Source: a virus
DNA length: 28,941 bases
IMG/VR virus record: IMGVR_UViG_3300025930_000215
Coordinates: 1-28,941 of that record
Reading direction: 5' to 3' (one strand)
Shown: one piece after another, positions 4,066 to 22,613 of the stretch
Layout: the number at the start of each line of letters is the position of its first letter
Numbering within the stretch: position 1 is the first letter of the stretch
Made by a program: the position numbers and the translations under genes
Notes under the pieces: model-generated
What the model saw: the letters and a program-made list of their open reading frames with translations, nothing else
Database searches by the model: none
What the model was told of the DNA's origin: nothing

Positions 4066-4173
4066 CGTATTCCCCGAAATTAAGGACGCGGAGCCTCTTC
4101 CATTTTTTCTGATTTTTAAACCGCTTTCTTTTTCAGAAAAATTGGCGGACTATTCCCAGAGAGAGGATGAAAC
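4066..4173. promoter_or_regulatory. Divergent control region with 9 bp inverted repeat
   Basis: This is the only divergent junction in the window, between the primase operon and the rightward replication block. It is AT-rich in the middle. TTTTTCTGA (4104-4112) and TCAGAAAAA (4133-4141) form a perfect 9 bp inverted repeat around 20 nt. It must hold at least the rightward start signals and possibly an operator or origin. I could not assign -35/-10 boxes with confidence. Confidence 0.5.
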
Positions 4174-7550: not shown

Positions 7551-8309
7551 ATGAAAAATTCAAACCAAGCGAAAGCAGCACGTGCCAGATGGGCTGATCC
7601 TATTTACAGAGCAAATCAACTAAAAGCCATACGTGCAAAATTATCCGATACTTCTTATACAAAACGGCGACTCAAAGCACTGCGTACTTCTGAGTACAGA
7701 AAACGTCGAAGCAAAGAAATGTTCGCTCGCTGGGCTGATCCTGTTTACAAAGAACGTCTAAGTAAATCTATACGTCTCGCATTATCTGATCCTGTAGTTC
7801 GAGAACGTCAAAGTAAAATTATGCGTGCCATATGTGCCGACCCTAAGAATAAAAAACGTCGAAGCAAGGCCATGCTTGCTATCTGGGCTGATCCTGTTTA
7901 CAGAGAGCGTCGGGTCAAAGCTATGCTTGTTACATTTTCTGATCCAGCAGTCCGAGAACGTATAAGTAAATCATTGCGCGCTAGATGCGCTAATCCAGAA
8001 CGCAGAGAAAAGATGAGTAAGACTATGCTTGCTGTCTGGACTGATCCTGCTTACAGAGAGCGTCACAAAAAAGCTGTACTTGCTTCTATACAGACTCCTG
8101 CTCACAAAGAACGTCAAAGTAAACAATCTCGTGCTCGATGGAAAAATCCTGAATACAGAGAAAAAATAAGCAAAGCCCTACGTGCTAGGTGGATTAATCC
8201 TGAATATAAAAAACAAGCATCTAAAAAGATGTCCATCAGAATGCAAAAAGAAAAACAGCTCATCCAATTTGCTAAACAAATCCTCAAAGAGACAGGAGTT
8301 GAACTATGA
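7551..8309 (+). CDS. Tandem 17-residue repeat protein (NUMOD/IENR-like)
   Basis: A 252-residue, strongly basic protein made almost entirely of 13 tandem repeats. Twelve are 17 residues long (typical unit DPVYRERRVKAMLVTFS) and one, the second, is only 13. The pattern D/N-P-x-Y-R-E-R-x-S-K-x-M/L-R-A-x-W-A resembles nuclease-associated modular domains (NUMOD3/IENR) that bind DNA in homing endonucleases, but no nuclease domain is attached. A short tail (residues about 230-252) ends the protein. AGAGGATGA precedes the start directly, giving ATGAAATGA. It is followed by an ATGA overlap with the next gene. Probably a DNA- or RNA-binding array protein. Confidence 0.75.
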   Translation: MKNSNQAKAARARWADPIYRANQLKAIRAKLSDTSYTKRRLKALRTSEYRKRRSKEMFARWADPVYKERLSKSIRLALSDPVVRERQSKIMRAICADPKNKKRRSKAMLAIWADPVYRERRVKAMLVTFSDPAVRERISKSLRARCANPERREKMSKTMLAVWTDPAYRERHKKAVLASIQTPAHKERQSKQSRARWKNPEYREKISKALRARWINPEYKKQASKKMSIRMQKEKQLIQFAKQILKETGVEL

Positions 8310-18169: not shown

Positions 18170-18193
18170 ACATCGAAACAAAGGAGAATGAAA

Positions 18194-18523
18194 ATGTTTG
18201 TTGTCTATCATATCGCTTCCACGCACATGGTTGGTCCTGCTCCGGGATACGCTAGTCCACATACAATGTATGCCCGTACTTATAAGACGGCGCACATGGC
18301 GAAGCGGACCTGTGATAAGTTTAACGCCAAGGAGCATCGTACTTGGGGTGGTGAGACGCTTGAAGGTCCTGGCTCCTATGGCTGGTGCTCCGCTGACCAC
18401 TACCAGAAGCGGGTTGTGCGGATGGTTGAGCGTACCAATATGATGTCAGGAAAAAAGTTCATGGAGCCGAGCAACACTCCGGGTTACATGAGCCCTTCGT
18501 CCGAAGCTTACTGGTCTATGTGA
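18194..18523 (+). CDS. Conserved phage protein, unknown function
   Basis: A 109-residue protein beginning MFVVYHIASTHMVG, with YKTAHMAKRTCDKFN and ending SNTPGYMSPSSEAYWSM. The C-terminal tail pattern (N-T-P ... PSSE-x-YWSM) recurs in proteins of many phages, with no known role. AAAGGAGA stands at good spacing before the ATG at 18194; the ATG at 18188 is too close to it. It is followed by the first copy of the two-hairpin leader. Confidence 0.7.
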   Translation: MFVVYHIASTHMVGPAPGYASPHTMYARTYKTAHMAKRTCDKFNAKEHRTWGGETLEGPGSYGWCSADHYQKRVVRMVERTNMMSGKKFMEPSNTPGYMSPSSEAYWSM

Positions 18524-18597
18524 GGTGATCATCGAAGCGGGGCAGCGTGCTGCCCCGTCACGATGCGATCCTGCATCAAACAGAGAGGATGACTAAA
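18524..18597 (+). promoter_or_regulatory. Two-hairpin leader, copy 1
   Basis: After the stop comes GGTGATCATCG, then hairpin 1 (CGGGGCAG/CTGCCCCG, 18538-18545 with 18550-18557), TCA, hairpin 2 (GATGC/GCATC, 18562-18566 with 18573-18577), then AAACAGAGAGGATGA. CATCG (18530-18534) can also pair with CGATG (18561-18565), which excludes hairpin 2 and encloses hairpin 1. Hairpin 1 lacks a T-run, so it is not a standard terminator. See copies 2 and 3. Confidence 0.6.
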
Positions 18598-18813
18598 ATG
18601 AAAATGCTTGCTAGCTTTGAACTCCAAGCGAATGATCCTACAGTAGCTCCCTGCCGTATCGTGCTCGTTGATACGGAGGCCGGTTACCATCCGCTTGTTA
18701 CTTGGTTAGAGAACACAGCAAATGGTGGCCGCGTTTGGGGCCACTACTTCTCCCGCGAACAAGAGACGGAAGCCAGAGCAGACTTCATGGCCCGTGTAAA
18801 GAGAGGATACTAG
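18598..18813 (+). CDS. Small phage protein
   Basis: A 71-residue protein (MKMLASFELQANDP), with YHPLVTWLEN and GHYFSREQETEARADF. The HPLVTW...GHYF pattern suggests a compact alpha/beta domain. Start chosen at 18598, six bases after AGAGGATGA and downstream of the first two-hairpin leader; an upstream in-frame ATG at 18547 lies inside hairpin 1 and is rejected. No function recognised. Confidence 0.7.
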   Translation: MKMLASFELQANDPTVAPCRIVLVDTEAGYHPLVTWLENTANGGRVWGHYFSREQETEARADFMARVKRGY

Positions 18814-18814
18814 A

Positions 18815-19024
18815 ATGACTTTAAGTTTTGAACGACGCGTGTACATCGTTAAGCGGATCGCACGCCTCACCGACAAGCTGAACAAGATCAACAATCTGTA
18901 CGCTTGTCGATCCCACTCTGGTCATCCGGAGGATATCAAGGTGCGTGAGTCTCTAAAGAAGGATCGTGCCTCAACGCTGGCTTCGCTTAAGCGTTGGGAA
19001 AAGCAACTTGGCATTCAGGCCTAG
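18815..19024 (+). CDS. Small basic helical protein
   Basis: A 69-residue protein (MTLSFERRVYIVKRIARL). It is highly basic and almost entirely helical with heptad-like leucines (LTDKLNKINNL, LASLKRWEKQL), suggesting a coiled coil or helical hairpin. GAGAGGATAC, a variant of the common leader signal, precedes the start. One base separates it from the previous gene. Function unknown. Confidence 0.65.
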   Translation: MTLSFERRVYIVKRIARLTDKLNKINNLYACRSHSGHPEDIKVRESLKKDRASTLASLKRWEKQLGIQA

Positions 19025-19146
19025 TGGACCGAGGGTAACACTCGACTCAGCCGCGACGGCAACGGGAGTGCGCATAGCAACAAGACGGGGTTGTGGTCCT
19101 TGGTCCACTGCATGGTAGGCATACCATTGAAACCCCGTAAGCCGTC
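19023..19146 (+). ncRNA. Structured leader with potential pseudoknot
   Basis: An 8 bp stem, AGTGGACC (19023-19030) with GGTCCACT (19102-19109), closes a domain containing CGAG/CTCG and GCCG/CGGC hairpins. ACGGGGTT (19085-19092), inside that domain, is perfectly complementary to AACCCCGT (19131-19138) outside it, which makes an H-type pseudoknot possible. GACGGC (19055-19060) also matches GCCGTC (19141-19146), and ATGGT/ACCAT forms a hairpin between. The element ends 28 bp before the 19175 start. It could be a cis-acting regulatory RNA or a processed small RNA. Confidence 0.5.
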
Positions 19147-19174
19147 ATTTAACTTCAAACACAGAGAGGATGAA

Positions 19175-19387
19175 ATGACTACAATCTTTGCTATCCTAGT
19201 ATGTACAAAAATTCTATCAACTGGACAAGAAGGCTGCATATTTCAGAACAATATGCCAATCTTTAGTTCAGTTGAACAGTGTAATGCAACAATCGACAAA
19301 ATTGGTAGGCGTGAAACCTTCCAAGCTGTAGCCCTAGAACGATTGTGCGTGAAGAAAGAAACATCAACTTGGCAACTTGCCAAATAG
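19175..19387 (+). CDS. Small probable exported cysteine-containing protein
   Basis: A 70-residue protein starting MTTIFAILVCTKILS, a short hydrophobic N-terminus resembling a weak signal peptide, followed by GCIF, EQCNATI and ERLCVK. The four cysteines could form two disulfides in the periplasm. AGAGGATGA precedes the ATG with one base between (ATGAAATGA). It is downstream of the pseudoknot-like leader. Function unknown; the signal peptide is less clear than those of the 20988 and 21451 proteins. Confidence 0.6.
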   Translation: MTTIFAILVCTKILSTGQEGCIFQNNMPIFSSVEQCNATIDKIGRRETFQAVALERLCVKKETSTWQLAK

Positions 19388-19413
19388 TCAAATCAAACAG
19401 AGAGGATGAAACG

Positions 19414-20916
19414 ATGAACTGGAGTGAACAACAAGCCGCGTTTCTCGATTGGTCAGTCAACGGGACCGGCTCATGCGTACTGGAAGCCGTCGCTGGCGCG
19501 GGCAAGACCACGGTCCTGCTCGCGGCCGCAGAGCAGATGCCCGGAGCCGTCGCAATCATGGCGTACAATAAAAAGATTGCGGTTGAGATCGAGGGCAAGC
19601 TGAAGAAGAAGGGTGTGGACGGGAAGAAGGCGAAAGCCGGCACGGTTCATTCCTTTGGCTTTGGCGCGTACCGCAAGGCCAACGCCAGAGTGAAAGTGGA
19701 AGGCTTCAAGGTCGCCAACCTTGTAGAGAATTTGCTTCCACAAAACCACCCGTTGGAAAAGTATTCTGAAATGGTGGTGAAGCTGGTTAGCCTCGCCAAG
19801 CAGACTGCGCTTGGCATCTTCGGATCGGTCGAGGATACCGCAGAATGGTTTGCGATCGCAGACCACTATGATGTATTTGAAAGCGACAACGGTCCTGTAC
19901 CGGCTGAGGAGCTAGTCGAGACAGCGAAGCTCGCCTTGCGGGCTTCCAACGCGCAAAAGGAGATCATCGACTTTGATGATATGATCTATTTGCCGCTGCT
20001 GTTCCGCCTTCCGTTCTTTCAATACGATGTTGTGATGGTAGACGAAGCGCAGGACACAAACGCTGCGCGCCGTGCGCTGGTGCGGGCGATGGTAAGGAAG
20101 GGAGGCAGAGTCATCGCAGTCGGTGACCGGCATCAGGCAATCTACGGCTTCACCGGAGCCGATGCGAACAGCCTCGACCTGATAGCGAATGACTTTAATT
20201 GCGAGCGGCTTCCGCTCACAATCACCTATCGCTGTCCGAAGAATGTTGTGGCCTTCTCTCAGCGTTGGGTAAGCCATATCACCGCTGCTGAGGCTGCGCC
20301 CGAAGGGACAGTTTCAGCAACGACTGTTCCGGAGTTCATGAAGCGGAATGATCTGAACGGTGATGCTGCGATCCTCTGCCGTGTAACGAAGCCGCTTGTG
20401 TCGTTAGCCTTCCAACTGATCCGTGCGCGTATCCCTTGCCGCATCGAGGGACGTGACATCGCTGCTCAGATCAAGAAGCTGATCACGCGCTGGAAGGTCG
20501 CGGACCTCGATGCGCTTGAAGTGAAGCTCGATGACTTCCTAGCAAAGGAGACGACCAAGCTCCTCGCAAAGAAGCAAGAGGCCAAGCTGGCCGTGGTAGA
20601 AGACAGCGTGGAGACGATCCGCGTTATCATCGACCAGTGCCGGCAGGAAGGTAAGGAGACAATCAGCGACGCAACGGCATATGTGGACAGCATGTTCGCG
20701 GATGACGTAACGGGCTTGCTGGTACTCTCGACCATCCACAAGGCCAAGGGACGCGAATGGGAGAAGGTCTTTTGGTTGGACCGTCCCGGCACCTGCCCGT
20801 CCAAATGGGCGCGGCAGGAGTGGCAGCAGGAACAGGAGCGCAATCTTATGTATGTTGCTGCGACGCGAGCCAAGGCTGAATTGATTGAGTTGGCTCTAGC
20901 AAAGAAGGAAGGGTGA
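19414..20916 (+). CDS. UvrD/Rep-like SF1 helicase
   Basis: A 500-residue superfamily 1A helicase. In order: Walker A VAGAGKTT (26-33), motif Ia with AYNKK, motif II VMVDEAQDT, motif III GDRHQAIYGFTG, motif IV TYRCP, motif V STIHKAKGREW and motif VI YVAATRAKAEL. The domain 1B and 2B insertions are reduced compared with UvrD (about 720), giving a compact phage type. Such 3'-5' helicases act in replication restart or recombination. The start at 19414 follows AGAGGATGA by four bases. Its stop lies in the first bases of the second two-hairpin leader. Confidence 0.9.
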   Translation: MNWSEQQAAFLDWSVNGTGSCVLEAVAGAGKTTVLLAAAEQMPGAVAIMAYNKKIAVEIEGKLKKKGVDGKKAKAGTVHSFGFGAYRKANARVKVEGFKVANLVENLLPQNHPLEKYSEMVVKLVSLAKQTALGIFGSVEDTAEWFAIADHYDVFESDNGPVPAEELVETAKLALRASNAQKEIIDFDDMIYLPLLFRLPFFQYDVVMVDEAQDTNAARRALVRAMVRKGGRVIAVGDRHQAIYGFTGADANSLDLIANDFNCERLPLTITYRCPKNVVAFSQRWVSHITAAEAAPEGTVSATTVPEFMKRNDLNGDAAILCRVTKPLVSLAFQLIRARIPCRIEGRDIAAQIKKLITRWKVADLDALEVKLDDFLAKETTKLLAKKQEAKLAVVEDSVETIRVIIDQCRQEGKETISDATAYVDSMFADDVTGLLVLSTIHKAKGREWEKVFWLDRPGTCPSKWARQEWQQEQERNLMYVAATRAKAELIELALAKKEG

Positions 20917-20987
20917 TCATCGCAGGACGGCTCCTCAGTGGGAGCCGTCTCACGATGCGATCCTGCATCAGAAGAGAGGATGAGAAA
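20917..20987 (+). promoter_or_regulatory. Two-hairpin leader, copy 2
   Basis: It begins with GGTGATCATCG, which overlaps the helicase stop codon. Hairpin 1 is GACGGCTCC/GGAGCCGTC (20926-20934 with 20941-20949). TCA is followed by hairpin 2, identical to copy 1 (20954-20958 with 20965-20969), then AGAGGATGA (20975-20983). A 21 nt block (20950-20970) is identical to 18558-18578. CATCG (20918-20922) can replace the hairpin 2 pairing by binding CGATG (20953-20957). The hairpin 1 sequence differs completely from copy 1 while its pairing is kept. Confidence 0.65.
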
Positions 20988-21374
20988 ATGAAATACATAA
21001 TTGTTCTGCTAGTCGGATTGGTGGCTTCGTTGACATCAGCGGAAGCAAGTTGGCGCTCGCCTGTTGACGGTACTAAGTCAGGATATTGTATGAGTGCTTA
21101 TTCCGGTAGGCCCATCAGTCAATACTGGGCTAGGGATATTCGCTTTTGCCCTGAGAACCGAAAACAAAAGCCAAAGGTAAAAAAGGTCAAAACGGTTTCT
21201 GTAGAGCCGTACGCAAACCTCACACTGGACGAAGCTCAGCGGCAGGAGTTTGTACCGCAAGTCTCCGTCTACGAGACAATTGACCGCGTGTTGAGTTTGC
21301 CGAAGGGTACCACGTTGCAGTCGTTGCGGATGCCTCCGTATGACGGCACCGAGGCATATGCGCAGGTTAAATAG
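20988..21374 (+). CDS. Exported protein of unknown function
   Basis: A 128-residue protein with a clear signal peptide: basic start MKYI, a hydrophobic core of about 12 residues, and a probable cleavage after AEA (about residue 20). The mature part has C36 and C53 (YCMSAYSGRPIS, IRFCPENRK), a Lys-rich linker (KQKPKVKKVK) and a charged C-terminal half. It probably works in the periplasm, perhaps in superinfection exclusion or envelope change; nothing decides this. Start fixed by AGAGGATGA after leader copy 2. Confidence 0.7.
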   Translation: MKYIIVLLVGLVASLTSAEASWRSPVDGTKSGYCMSAYSGRPISQYWARDIRFCPENRKQKPKVKKVKTVSVEPYANLTLDEAQRQEFVPQVSVYETIDRVLSLPKGTTLQSLRMPPYDGTEAYAQVK

Positions 21375-21450
21375 TGTAGCGCAGCGCGGCTCTTTCCGAA
21401 AGGAGCCGCGTCACGGTACACTTCTGTACCAAAACAGAGAGGATGAGACT
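21375..21450 (+). promoter_or_regulatory. Two-hairpin leader, copy 3 with covarying stems
   Basis: Hairpin 1 is CGCGGCTC/GAGCCGCG (21385-21392 with 21403-21410). TCACG is followed by hairpin 2, GGTACA/TGTACC with a CTTC loop (21415-21420 with 21425-21430), then AAAACAGAGAGGATGA. AGTGTA (21373-21378), which includes part of the stop codon, can pair with TACACT (21417-21422) and exclude hairpin 2. Both the hairpin 2 stem and the alternative pairing are retained although their bases differ from copies 1 and 2. Confidence 0.65.
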
Positions 21451-22128
21451 ATGTTAAAACAATTAGCAGTTATAGCCGGGGTGACGCTTGCGTTATCGGC
21501 TAGTGCGAAGGCTGACGTCAAACAATACTATCAATCTGGCGGTTGGACAAATTATGCCGGGACCGGCAACGATGGCTTGGTCTGCGGTATGAGCATCAAG
21601 AACCGTGATGCATCTCAGTCGGTGCATTTCAAATACTTCGCTAAGTCTGATAAAATCTACGTGCAGGTTTTCAAGGCCAGCTGGCGGATACCGGAAGGCA
21701 CCAAGGTCGCAATTGAAGTCGGCTTTGATAAGGAGGCTTGGGGCGGTGTCGATGATGCCTATGGTGAGACCATGACTGGTAGCACCGGCTACAAGATGGG
21801 AGTCATTACCGTACCAATCAATCCAAAGTCTGTGTCCAGCTTCTTGCAGCAGGCATCTGAAGCAAACAGCATGTGGCTACGTTTCCCCAGTGGAAATGAA
21901 ACGACATGGACTGCCGACATGACTGGGAGCCGCAGTTCTGTGGTTGCGTTCAAGATGTGCATCACAAAGGTCGGCGGCAATGGTAACACTCAACCGTATG
22001 GTAACACTCAACCGTATGGTAACACTCAGCCATTCGGTAAAAATGAAAAGCCCGATACTGGTGGTGACAAGCAAATGGAAAAACCATCGCCAGCGTTCAG
22101 ACGTAAGCCGGGAGAGGGAGACGCATAA
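21451..22128 (+). CDS. Exported protein with GNTQPYG repeats
   Basis: A 225-residue protein with a signal peptide (MLKQLAVIAGVTLALSASAKA, probable cleavage before DVKQYY). The mature part reads like a beta-rich domain with two cysteines (VCGMSIK, KMCITK) and ASWRIPEGTKVAIEVGFDKEAW, reminiscent of periplasmic IalB-type or similar rhizobial proteins. A flexible tail carries three GNTQP(Y/F) units and ends Pro/Lys-rich. Start chosen at 21451 after AGAGGATGA; a longer frame from 21340 reads through the leader and is rejected. Role unknown. Confidence 0.7.
   Translation: MLKQLAVIAGVTLALSASAKADVKQYYQSGGWTNYAGTGNDGLVCGMSIKNRDASQSVHFKYFAKSDKIYVQVFKASWRIPEGTKVAIEVGFDKEAWGGVDDAYGETMTGSTGYKMGVITVPINPKSVSSFLQQASEANSMWLRFPSGNETTWTADMTGSRSSVVAFKMCITKVGGNGNTQPYGNTQPYGNTQPFGKNEKPDTGGDKQMEKPSPAFRRKPGEGDA
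21982..22035 (+). repeat. 18 bp tandem repeat, three units
   Basis: GGTAACACTCAACCGTAT occurs twice exactly (21982-21999, 22000-22017) and once with changes in its last part (22018-22035). It encodes the GNTQPY units in the linker of the exported protein. Copy number could vary by slippage, in frame. Confidence 0.9.
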
Positions 22129-22537: not shown

Positions 22538-22559
22538 TCCAGAAAGTTGTAGACTAAAG

Positions 22560-22594
22560 AAAAAGAACGGGGCACGCTCGGCTCTGTTCTTTTT
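22560..22594 (+). terminator. Bidirectional intrinsic terminator
   Basis: A 14 bp stem (22560-22573 with 22581-22594, two G.U pairs) has a 7 nt loop. Five As start the 5' arm and TTTTT ends the 3' arm, so it can terminate in either direction. It follows the HTH gene and precedes AGAGGATGA of the next gene by only 6 bp, so the downstream gene may depend on read-through or a promoter I cannot see. Confidence 0.75.
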
Positions 22595-22613
22595 CAATAG
22601 AGAGGATGAAATA

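Follow-up and report, generated by a model that had tools for sequence, protein, structure and literature searches.

The window, a 28,941-nucleotide stretch from an uncultured phage (IMG/VR record IMGVR_UViG_3300025930_000215, positions 1 to 28,941), contains three leaders of similar build, which we found exactly where a sequence-only reading had placed them. The elements and their neighbour genes are all on the + strand. The first copy (w1, 18524..18577; 71.8 bits with model R1) follows a 111-aa gene for which no family was found (18188..18523) and precedes a 71-aa gene without Pfam or PHROG match (18598..18813), which is missing from the near relative L007. The second copy (w2, 20910..20969; 67.3 bits) follows a gene for a UvrD/REP-type helicase (19414..20916), and the third (w3, 21373..21430; 40.5 bits) lies behind the 128-aa gene that separates it from w2 (20988..21374). 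This gene and the 225-aa gene downstream of w3 (21451..22128) both encode proteins with an apparent signal peptide, judging by inspection, and the 225-aa protein is 36% identical to the one behind another copy of the element, L004_1981. Gene gaps in the window measure 71-76 nt where the element is present, against -4 to 26 nt at most other junctions.

Each leader comprises an upstream strand and two hairpins, P2 (hairpin 1) and P3 (hairpin 2). P2 had been described as pairing over at least 8 bp everywhere, and it has 9, 11 and 12 bp in w1, w2 and w3 (arms 18537-18545 and 18550-18558; 20925-20935 and 20940-20950; 21384-21395 and 21400-21411). P3 is indeed built from GATGC/GCATC in two leaders and from GGTAC(A)/(T)GTACC in the third, and the upstream strand, CATCG in the first two and AGTGTA in w3, is complementary to the P3 5' arm, forming helix P1. 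In w1, the P1 5' strand CATCG (18530-18534) faces CGATGC (18561-18566), which is both P1 3' strand and P3 5' arm; the P3 loop GATCCT (18567-18572) and 3' arm GCATC (18573-18577) follow. In w2, P1 joins CATCG (20918-20922) to CGATG (20953-20957), and P3 joins GATGC (20954-20958) to GCATC (20965-20969). One helix had been overlooked: P0, between the upstream strand and the P3 loop, formed in w2 by AGGGT (20910-20914), which overlaps the stop TGA (20914-20916), with ATCCT (20960-20964). The outer helix of w3 pairs AGTGTA (21373-21378) with TACACT (21417-21422) and, beyond a G.G mismatch, CG (21380-21381) with CG (21414-21415), while its P3 pairs GGTAC (21415-21419) with GTACC (21426-21430). P2 is followed by CACG, CGCG, TGCG or similar without a U tract, in support of the earlier view that the element is no intrinsic terminator.

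The copies are flanked by an upstream stop (TGA 18521-18523 for w1, TAG 21372-21374 for w3) and by the SD and ATG of the next gene (SD 18582-18592, 20973-20983 and 21436-21446; ATG 18598, 20988 and 21451). The hairpins and the upstream strand of the leader plan hold, but AGAGAGGATGA, also counted as part of it, lies outside the element and is an SD motif associated with starts genome-wide (17 sites, 0.6 expected by chance). The 70% identical helicase homologue in L009 is preceded by a P0-P1-P2 copy, whereas the helicase gene of the window is not.

Pattern scans together with a covariance model extended the set to 36 copies of an element of about 60 bases between genes, in about 18 viral contigs and one bacterial contig; the roughly 17 other viral contigs are mostly distant from this phage. 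Model R1 recovered w3, which had been left out of its training, with an E value of 1e-11, and scans that did not require hairpin 1 found it present in the same register in about 17 viral contigs; the leader family is therefore far beyond chance. Our first structural scan did demand P2, and to avoid circularity P2 was verified on copies that came from scans with no such requirement. In bacteria, the model, run on 297 genomes of one order, found a single convincing copy (L412/L429), placed between an ArdC-like gene (by inspection) and a ParB-like gene; three other matches lacked the full layout or lay inside coding DNA. A pattern scan of bacterial genomes gave no copy with P2 among the at least 118 stretches listed, and plasmids gave no convincing copy. 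Among cultured phages, blastn with the consensus found no copy, and the model search of eight related ones returned only weak matches, by inspection coding DNA or a terminator-like hairpin. The window had no match in Rfam 15 at the gathering threshold, and below it just unrelated matches near the leaders.

The aligned copies carry compensatory changes in every helix. P2 is paired in 100% of 281 cells although its sequence is almost unconserved, with a covariation of 1.00 against 0.21 in shuffled alignments. P3 is paired in 99.4% of cells, with five compensatory cells, a level reached in 0 of 500 shuffles. P1 is 95% paired and tolerates mismatches (permutation P of 1e-5 for all copies and 0.001 for distinct types). 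For P0 the permutation P is about 1e-4 or less, and it stays at about 2e-4 or less, also for the P0+P1 duplex, on just 10-11 separate types; the strand/loop covariants include GGAT/ATCC, GAGT/ACTC, GTTG/CAAC, CATT/AATG, AGTG/CACT and GAGG/CTTC. Hand alignment was used for parts of the rows L408b, L411b and L009, and the P0 and P0+P1 results stand without these rows. Judged from these sequence patterns, P0, P1 and P2 are a single long irregular hairpin (fold A) mutually exclusive with P3 (fold B), and covariation supports both folds. The sequence-only reading had tied its proposal to further copies and to covariation, and both were found; its claim that compensatory change maintains two folds is borne out by P1 and P3. 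Fold A pairs over only about 9+5+4 bp, interrupted by internal loops, with a 2x2 loop separating P1 from P2; the inner mismatch of this loop is a standard pair in 0 of 36 copies (weak, P 0.1). In fold B, P3 stands three nucleotides behind P2 (33 of the 34 aligned copies; L356:10156 has one extra) and, in most copies, 1-12 nt ahead of the SD.

Each copy occupies the space from the stop codon of one gene to the SD of the next, and a same-strand gene follows. The upstream stop ends between -7 and +6 nt from the element start in 35 copies, and at -14 in the remaining one. The proteins encoded downstream are mostly unrelated to one another, as already noted for the window, and most of them match no family; the element is therefore not gene-specific, and on the same grounds we rejected a gene-specific riboswitch. 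Two further candidates did not survive inspection: a pseudoknot between the P3 loop and the SD (ATCC with GGAT/GGA) could form in many copies yet is not universal, the loops of L007_20569, L339_2001 and L412 having no complement, and sequestration of the start codon by the P3 3' arm (GCATC with GATG) breaks down in covarying copies.

In computed folding of the free RNA, P1 reached 0.80 and P3 0.15; when the upstream stop was occupied by a ribosome, the values became 0.07 and 0.88. The long hairpin is thus predicted to be favoured in free RNA, and P3 once a ribosome occupies the stop. The computed effect on the downstream ribosome site was small: in the P3 fold the SD is clearly more open in 14 of 34 copies and less open in 2, and opening the site costs on average 4.6 kcal/mol, against 5.2 in fold A, being easier in 19 of 33 copies and harder in 9. 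Such a small difference between folds does not demonstrate a classical on/off translational switch. Of the earlier proposal of selection for a switch, the retention of two exclusive folds stands, but the computed accessibilities, which differ little and non-uniformly, do not establish a regulatory switch.

On this sequence evidence, the element is a cis-acting RNA at gene junctions of phage polycistronic mRNAs with two mutually exclusive folds. As both folds have been kept in evolution, it probably controls the hand-over of the message between successive genes. The explanation that we rank first, and favour tentatively, is hand-over through RNase III-type processing. Comparison of the copies shows the sequence around the upstream stop paired, in the resting fold A, with the loop and the 5' arm of P3. 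A double-strand-specific, RNase III-type enzyme would cut the P1/P2 internal loop on its 3' side. P2 would then remain on the upstream message as a protective 3' hairpin, and the freed strand would form P3 at the extreme 5' terminus of the downstream message, directly ahead of its SD; removal of the 5' arm is predicted to convert fold A into fold B. The covariation seen is also accounted for by processing, if the cleavage product refolds. The refolding could equally be driven by a ribosome terminating at the upstream stop, and the position of this codon suits a ribosome-driven switch just as well. Other points count against processing. Several copies, namely the L356 set, L319 and L411, have folds A and B within about 2 kcal/mol of each other, a balance that processing does not need; and fold A is short and broken by loops, whereas the one rhizobial RNase III studied needs longer double-stranded RNA than the E. 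coli enzyme (PMC6121014). The loop NATCCY is also conserved beyond what P0 pairing needs, so another partner (SD or protein) may exist.

We rank second, as possible but rather unlikely, a translational switch in which the terminating ribosome melts P0 and P1, P3 forms, and downstream initiation or re-initiation changes. In practically all copies the stop lies in or beside the 5' arm, the computed shift from P1 to P3 and the opening of the SD by forced P3 in 14 copies agree with it, and coupling via RNA unfolding is an established mechanism (PMC12548453). On the other side, fold A does not clearly close the ribosome site, and the 60-90 nt or so between stop and start, with a stable hairpin in between, would lower coupling (PMC12548453). 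Junctions without the element in the same genome are tightly spaced, and the wider gaps at the element fit separation of neighbours rather than coupling. It appears improbable that a phage or host protein binds P3 or the P1/P2 internal loop to repress, protect or recruit, with the alternative fold gating its site. This would agree with the P3 arms and the loop NATCCY being far more conserved in sequence than P2 across distant phages; yet w3, L007_20569, L004b, L408b and L339_2001 have altered arms and loops and preserve the structure, complementarity among three strands by itself slows sequence change, and no candidate binding protein was found.

We regard it as highly unlikely that P2 acts alone, passively insulating the messages or stabilising mRNA 3' ends, with incidental flank pairing: no helix is more stable than P2 or covaries more, but P0, P1 and P3 covary individually and the P2-P3 spacing is nearly invariant. 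We hold just as scarcely credible an attC-like DNA recombination site between gene cassettes, which the location in the stop-to-start gaps that separate small variable genes might suggest. The w2 copy matches the left part of L007_11502 and the right part of L007_11906, joined in CGATGC, so one gene together with an element was gained or lost, but a 6-bp junction fits ordinary recombination between repeats equally, and the junction of the difference at w1 lies in the SD repeat, outside the element. The element is always oriented like both neighbour genes, and the attC core sites RYYYAAC/GTTRRRY are, by inspection, no shared feature of the 34 aligned copies. Moreover, sense-strand wobble pairs are frequent (14 U.G at P1 column 4 and 15 G.U at the P2 base, the P2 count being biased by a scan for standard pairs only, which leaves P1 column 4 unaffected) and A.C almost absent, indicating a sense RNA.

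More broadly, and with considerable doubt, the element may be a portable, gene-independent junction element in which one strand has two successive roles: it serves as the 3' arm of the hairpin that closes the upstream message and, once a ribosome has passed or a nuclease has cut, as the 5' arm of the hairpin that opens the downstream one. Such an element would be spread over distant phage lineages and would also occupy at least one locus in bacteria, a probably mobile one. Phage operons are usually viewed as simply packed genes; if the element is portable, it would explain how accessory genes that enter at any position keep their own mode of expression. The RNA family, absent from catalogues and under selection for two exclusive folds in unrelated environmental phages, can be searched for with the covariance model and offers a concrete test system for intercistronic RNA remodelling by a terminating ribosome or a nuclease.

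Competition of three strands for two mutually exclusive helices is also the principle of leader attenuators and of the expression platforms of riboswitches. Our element shares this competition, but it has no terminator and no Rfam match, is not bound to a single gene family, and is intergenic rather than at an operon 5' end. The RNase III signals R1.1 and R1.3 of T7 early mRNA recur at several unrelated gene junctions. Like them, the element is an intercistronic, gene-independent, irregular hairpin of about 60 nt near the next start (PMC6121014, PMC8708148). The T7 signals separate messages and stabilise them, and R1.1, a 60-nt hairpin with an internal loop that is cut on a single strand, matures and protects T7 mRNAs (PMC6121014, PMC8708148). 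P0+P1+P2 likewise holds an internal loop, a putative cleavage site between covarying arms, but this loop is 2x2 instead of the asymmetric 4/5-nt loop of R1.1, and plain folding of T7 R1.1 and R1.3 gives no counterpart of P3, a hairpin further downstream in which the strand of the lower stem is used again. The SAS/ESAS system of cluster K mycobacteriophages also combines a repeated SD-like start motif (here AGAGAGGATGA; the 13-bp SAS consensus GGGATAGGAGCCC was not matched at the starts) with an inverted-repeat element ahead of a subset of the motifs, where the gene gaps are wider than usual (PMC3203893). Among ESAS repeats a 17-bp sequence is conserved, departures from which do not support RNA pairing (PMC3203893), whereas the arms of our element vary and covary and form two exclusive folds. 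Finally, as in coupling by RNA unfolding (phage f1 VII/IX, MS2 coat/lysis, rpmI-rplT), where an upstream ribosome can open the intergenic structure (PMC12548453), the upstream stop lies in or beside the structure; those structures directly block the downstream ribosome site, whereas here the site is computed to be exposed to a similar degree in either fold, and the element appears portable between genes.

Comparison of the leader sequences shows an RNA-like element at gene junctions with two mutually exclusive folds under selection. The 28,941-base IMG/VR viral record carries phage replication genes (DNA polymerase III alpha subunit, UvrD-type helicase, ThyX and primase), and its three leaders occupy the junctions 18523/18598, 20916/20988 and 21374/21451, exactly as the sequence-only reading described them. 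From 5' to 3', a leader comprises the stop codon of the upstream gene, the 5' strand of helix P1 (CATCG, or AGTGTA with a mismatch and CG), 2 nt, hairpin P2, 2 nt, the strand CGATGC, the loop and 3' arm of hairpin P3, the Shine-Dalgarno sequence (SD) and ATG. CGATGC doubles as the 3' strand of P1 and the 5' arm of P3. The SD belongs to a genome-wide start-associated motif, AGAGAGGATGA (up to one mismatch), with 17 sites in the window against 0.6 expected, mostly directly 5' of start codons (for example at 4160, 7539, 18582, 19163, 19399, 20973, 21436, 22599, 24375 and 24861); other carrier phages seem to have versions of their own (AGGAGCAAGCC, GAAAGGAACRAACC).

An exact search with CACGATGCGATCCTGCATC matched four viral loci, and the set was enlarged by a structural scan of the fetched loci, two further pattern scans and a covariance model, R1. 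The proposed family does have further members: these searches, covering part of the sequence collections, brought the number of copies to 36; the carriers are about 18 distinct contigs of viral origin and a single bacterial one. Leader 3 was outside the R1 training set, yet it scored 40.5 bits. Contig L356 has at least five copies, L007 five, and L004 and the window three each; along long stretches, L007 and the window share about 97-98% identity. Among carriers with terminase matches, the nearest cultured phages by blastn differ by group (Rhizobium RHph_N2; Paracoccus Pyei1 and Bordetella phages; Enterobacter Tyrion and Salmonella SPN1S), and therefore the element is not restricted to one lineage. 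The copy at L429:9588-9649 (the L412 site) lies on a bacterial contig, outside recognised phage contigs, between an ArdC-like gene (by inspection) and a ParB-like gene, probably within a mobile element; model R2, whose training set included this copy, scored it at 48 bits, and R1, trained without it, at 36 bits.

Both folds covary, as had been proposed from three copies. In the 34-row model alignment A3, all P2 cells were paired (100%; 102 two-sided changes), against 99.4% of P3 cells (five such changes) and 95% of P1 cells (three), the changes in P1 and P3 coming from few independent lineages. Under random re-pairing of strands, P was 1e-5 for P1 and <1e-5 for P3 over all copies, and 0.001 for each over distinct types. 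Where the P3 arms vary (GGTAC/GTACC, GGTGC/GCACC, GCTGC/GCAGC), the upstream strand is usually altered too, preserving four or five of the five P1 pairs. P1 is less tightly held than P3, since its central pair is often a purine-purine mismatch. Minimum-energy folds also revealed a helix missed earlier, P0, in which the strand just before P1 pairs with the P3 loop. Its pairs covary (GGAT/ATCC, GGGT/ATCC, GAGT/ACTC, GTTG/CAAC, CATT/AATG, AGTG/CACT, GAGG/CTTC; permutation P <2e-5 over all copies, about 1e-4 or less over 10-11 separate types), and the duplex of the whole 5' and 3' arms reaches -10.5 kcal/mol versus -7.5 when shuffled (permutation P 4e-5). Fold A is thus a single long hairpin with internal loops, P0+P1+P2, and fold B is P2+P3. 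Because the shared strand has two partners, any change in it requires matching changes at two sites, which can explain why P1 and P3 are conserved in sequence while P2 is free to drift.

Secondary-structure calculations restricted to pseudoknot-free folds put fold A ahead of fold B, the median advantage being 3 kcal/mol; A led by more than 1 kcal/mol in 24 of 34 copies, and B was the favoured fold in three. Mean probabilities in free RNA were 0.80 for P1 and 0.15 for P3; when the stop codon and the 9 nt after it were masked to mimic a terminating ribosome, they reversed to 0.07 and 0.88. The RNA is thus predicted to switch folds once the 5' arm is lost.

In 35 of the 36 copies, the end of the upstream stop codon falls in the interval from 7 nt before the element start to 6 nt inside it, and the next gene is on the same strand. 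The proteins encoded downstream are mostly unrelated to one another, though a few small families can be recognised among them. Element presence varies between homologous genes of different phages; the helicase gene is preceded by a P0-P1-P2 copy in contig L009 and lacks one in the window. Window junctions with the element have gaps of 71-76 nt, versus mostly -4 to 26 nt without it. Frequent G.U pairs and constant orientation indicate that the element acts as sense RNA rather than DNA.

As to its job, we tentatively infer RNase III-type processing at the gene junction, for which T7 R1.1 is a precedent (PMC6121014, PMC8708148). If the P1/P2 internal loop were cut on its 3' side, the upstream message would keep P2 as a 3' hairpin and the downstream message would begin with P3; this would explain the reuse of the P1 strand by P3, the fixed P2-P3 spacing and the separation of genes by the element. 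A translational switch driven by termination, which we consider somewhat less likely, accounts better than such a cut for the stop codon position, but it has no clear output on the ribosome site: SD unpaired probability is 0.45 in fold A and 0.54 in fold B, and opening the downstream site costs 5.2 and 4.6 kcal/mol, both small effects. Moreover, structure directly behind a stop codon reduces translational coupling (PMC12548453), which also counts against the switch.

The second leader joins the left part of copy L007_11502 to the right part of L007_11906 inside CGATGC, and the gene between those copies (within L007 11502-11965) is missing from the window. At the first leader, the window has an extra gene (18598-18813), bounded by the SD repeat and absent from L007. 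With one junction within the element and one in the SD repeat, both sequences lie where genes have been gained or lost; ordinary recombination between short homologies is enough to account for this.

Other features were noticed. The 151-nt intergenic stretch 19025-19175 is well conserved in L007 and, by eye, offers pairing of GTGGACCGAGG with CCTTGGTCCAC and a crossing 8-bp helix of ACGGGGTT with AACCCCGT; it is possibly a pseudoknotted RNA (fold -48.5 kcal/mol, z -1.75), with no match in Rfam. The 76-nt gap 22538-22613 contains, by inspection, an A-run, a GC hairpin and a T-run (AAAAAGAACGGGGC..GCTCTGTTCTTTTT), likely an intrinsic terminator and possibly a bidirectional one. Another, distinct pair of intergenic hairpins, CCCCGTTGAGCGGGG followed by GGGGCGCC..GGCGCCCCTTTT, occurs both in Bradyrhizobium phage BDU-MI-1 and in an environmental phage (L425:1501-1573 and L014:20077-20147) and is probably a terminator. 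The gene at 7551-8309 is made up of tandem repeats, each 51 nt (17 residues) long and following the pattern W-ADP-YRERxSKAM, and weakly matches an HNH-endonuclease PHROG, and a perfect 22-bp inverted repeat (995-1016 and 1088-1109, 71 nt apart) lies near the contig start.

Rfam has no family matching the element, and we found no described equivalent among open-licence papers. In position it is similar to the SAS/ESAS of cluster K mycobacteriophages, from which it is distinct in sequence and covariation (PMC3203893).
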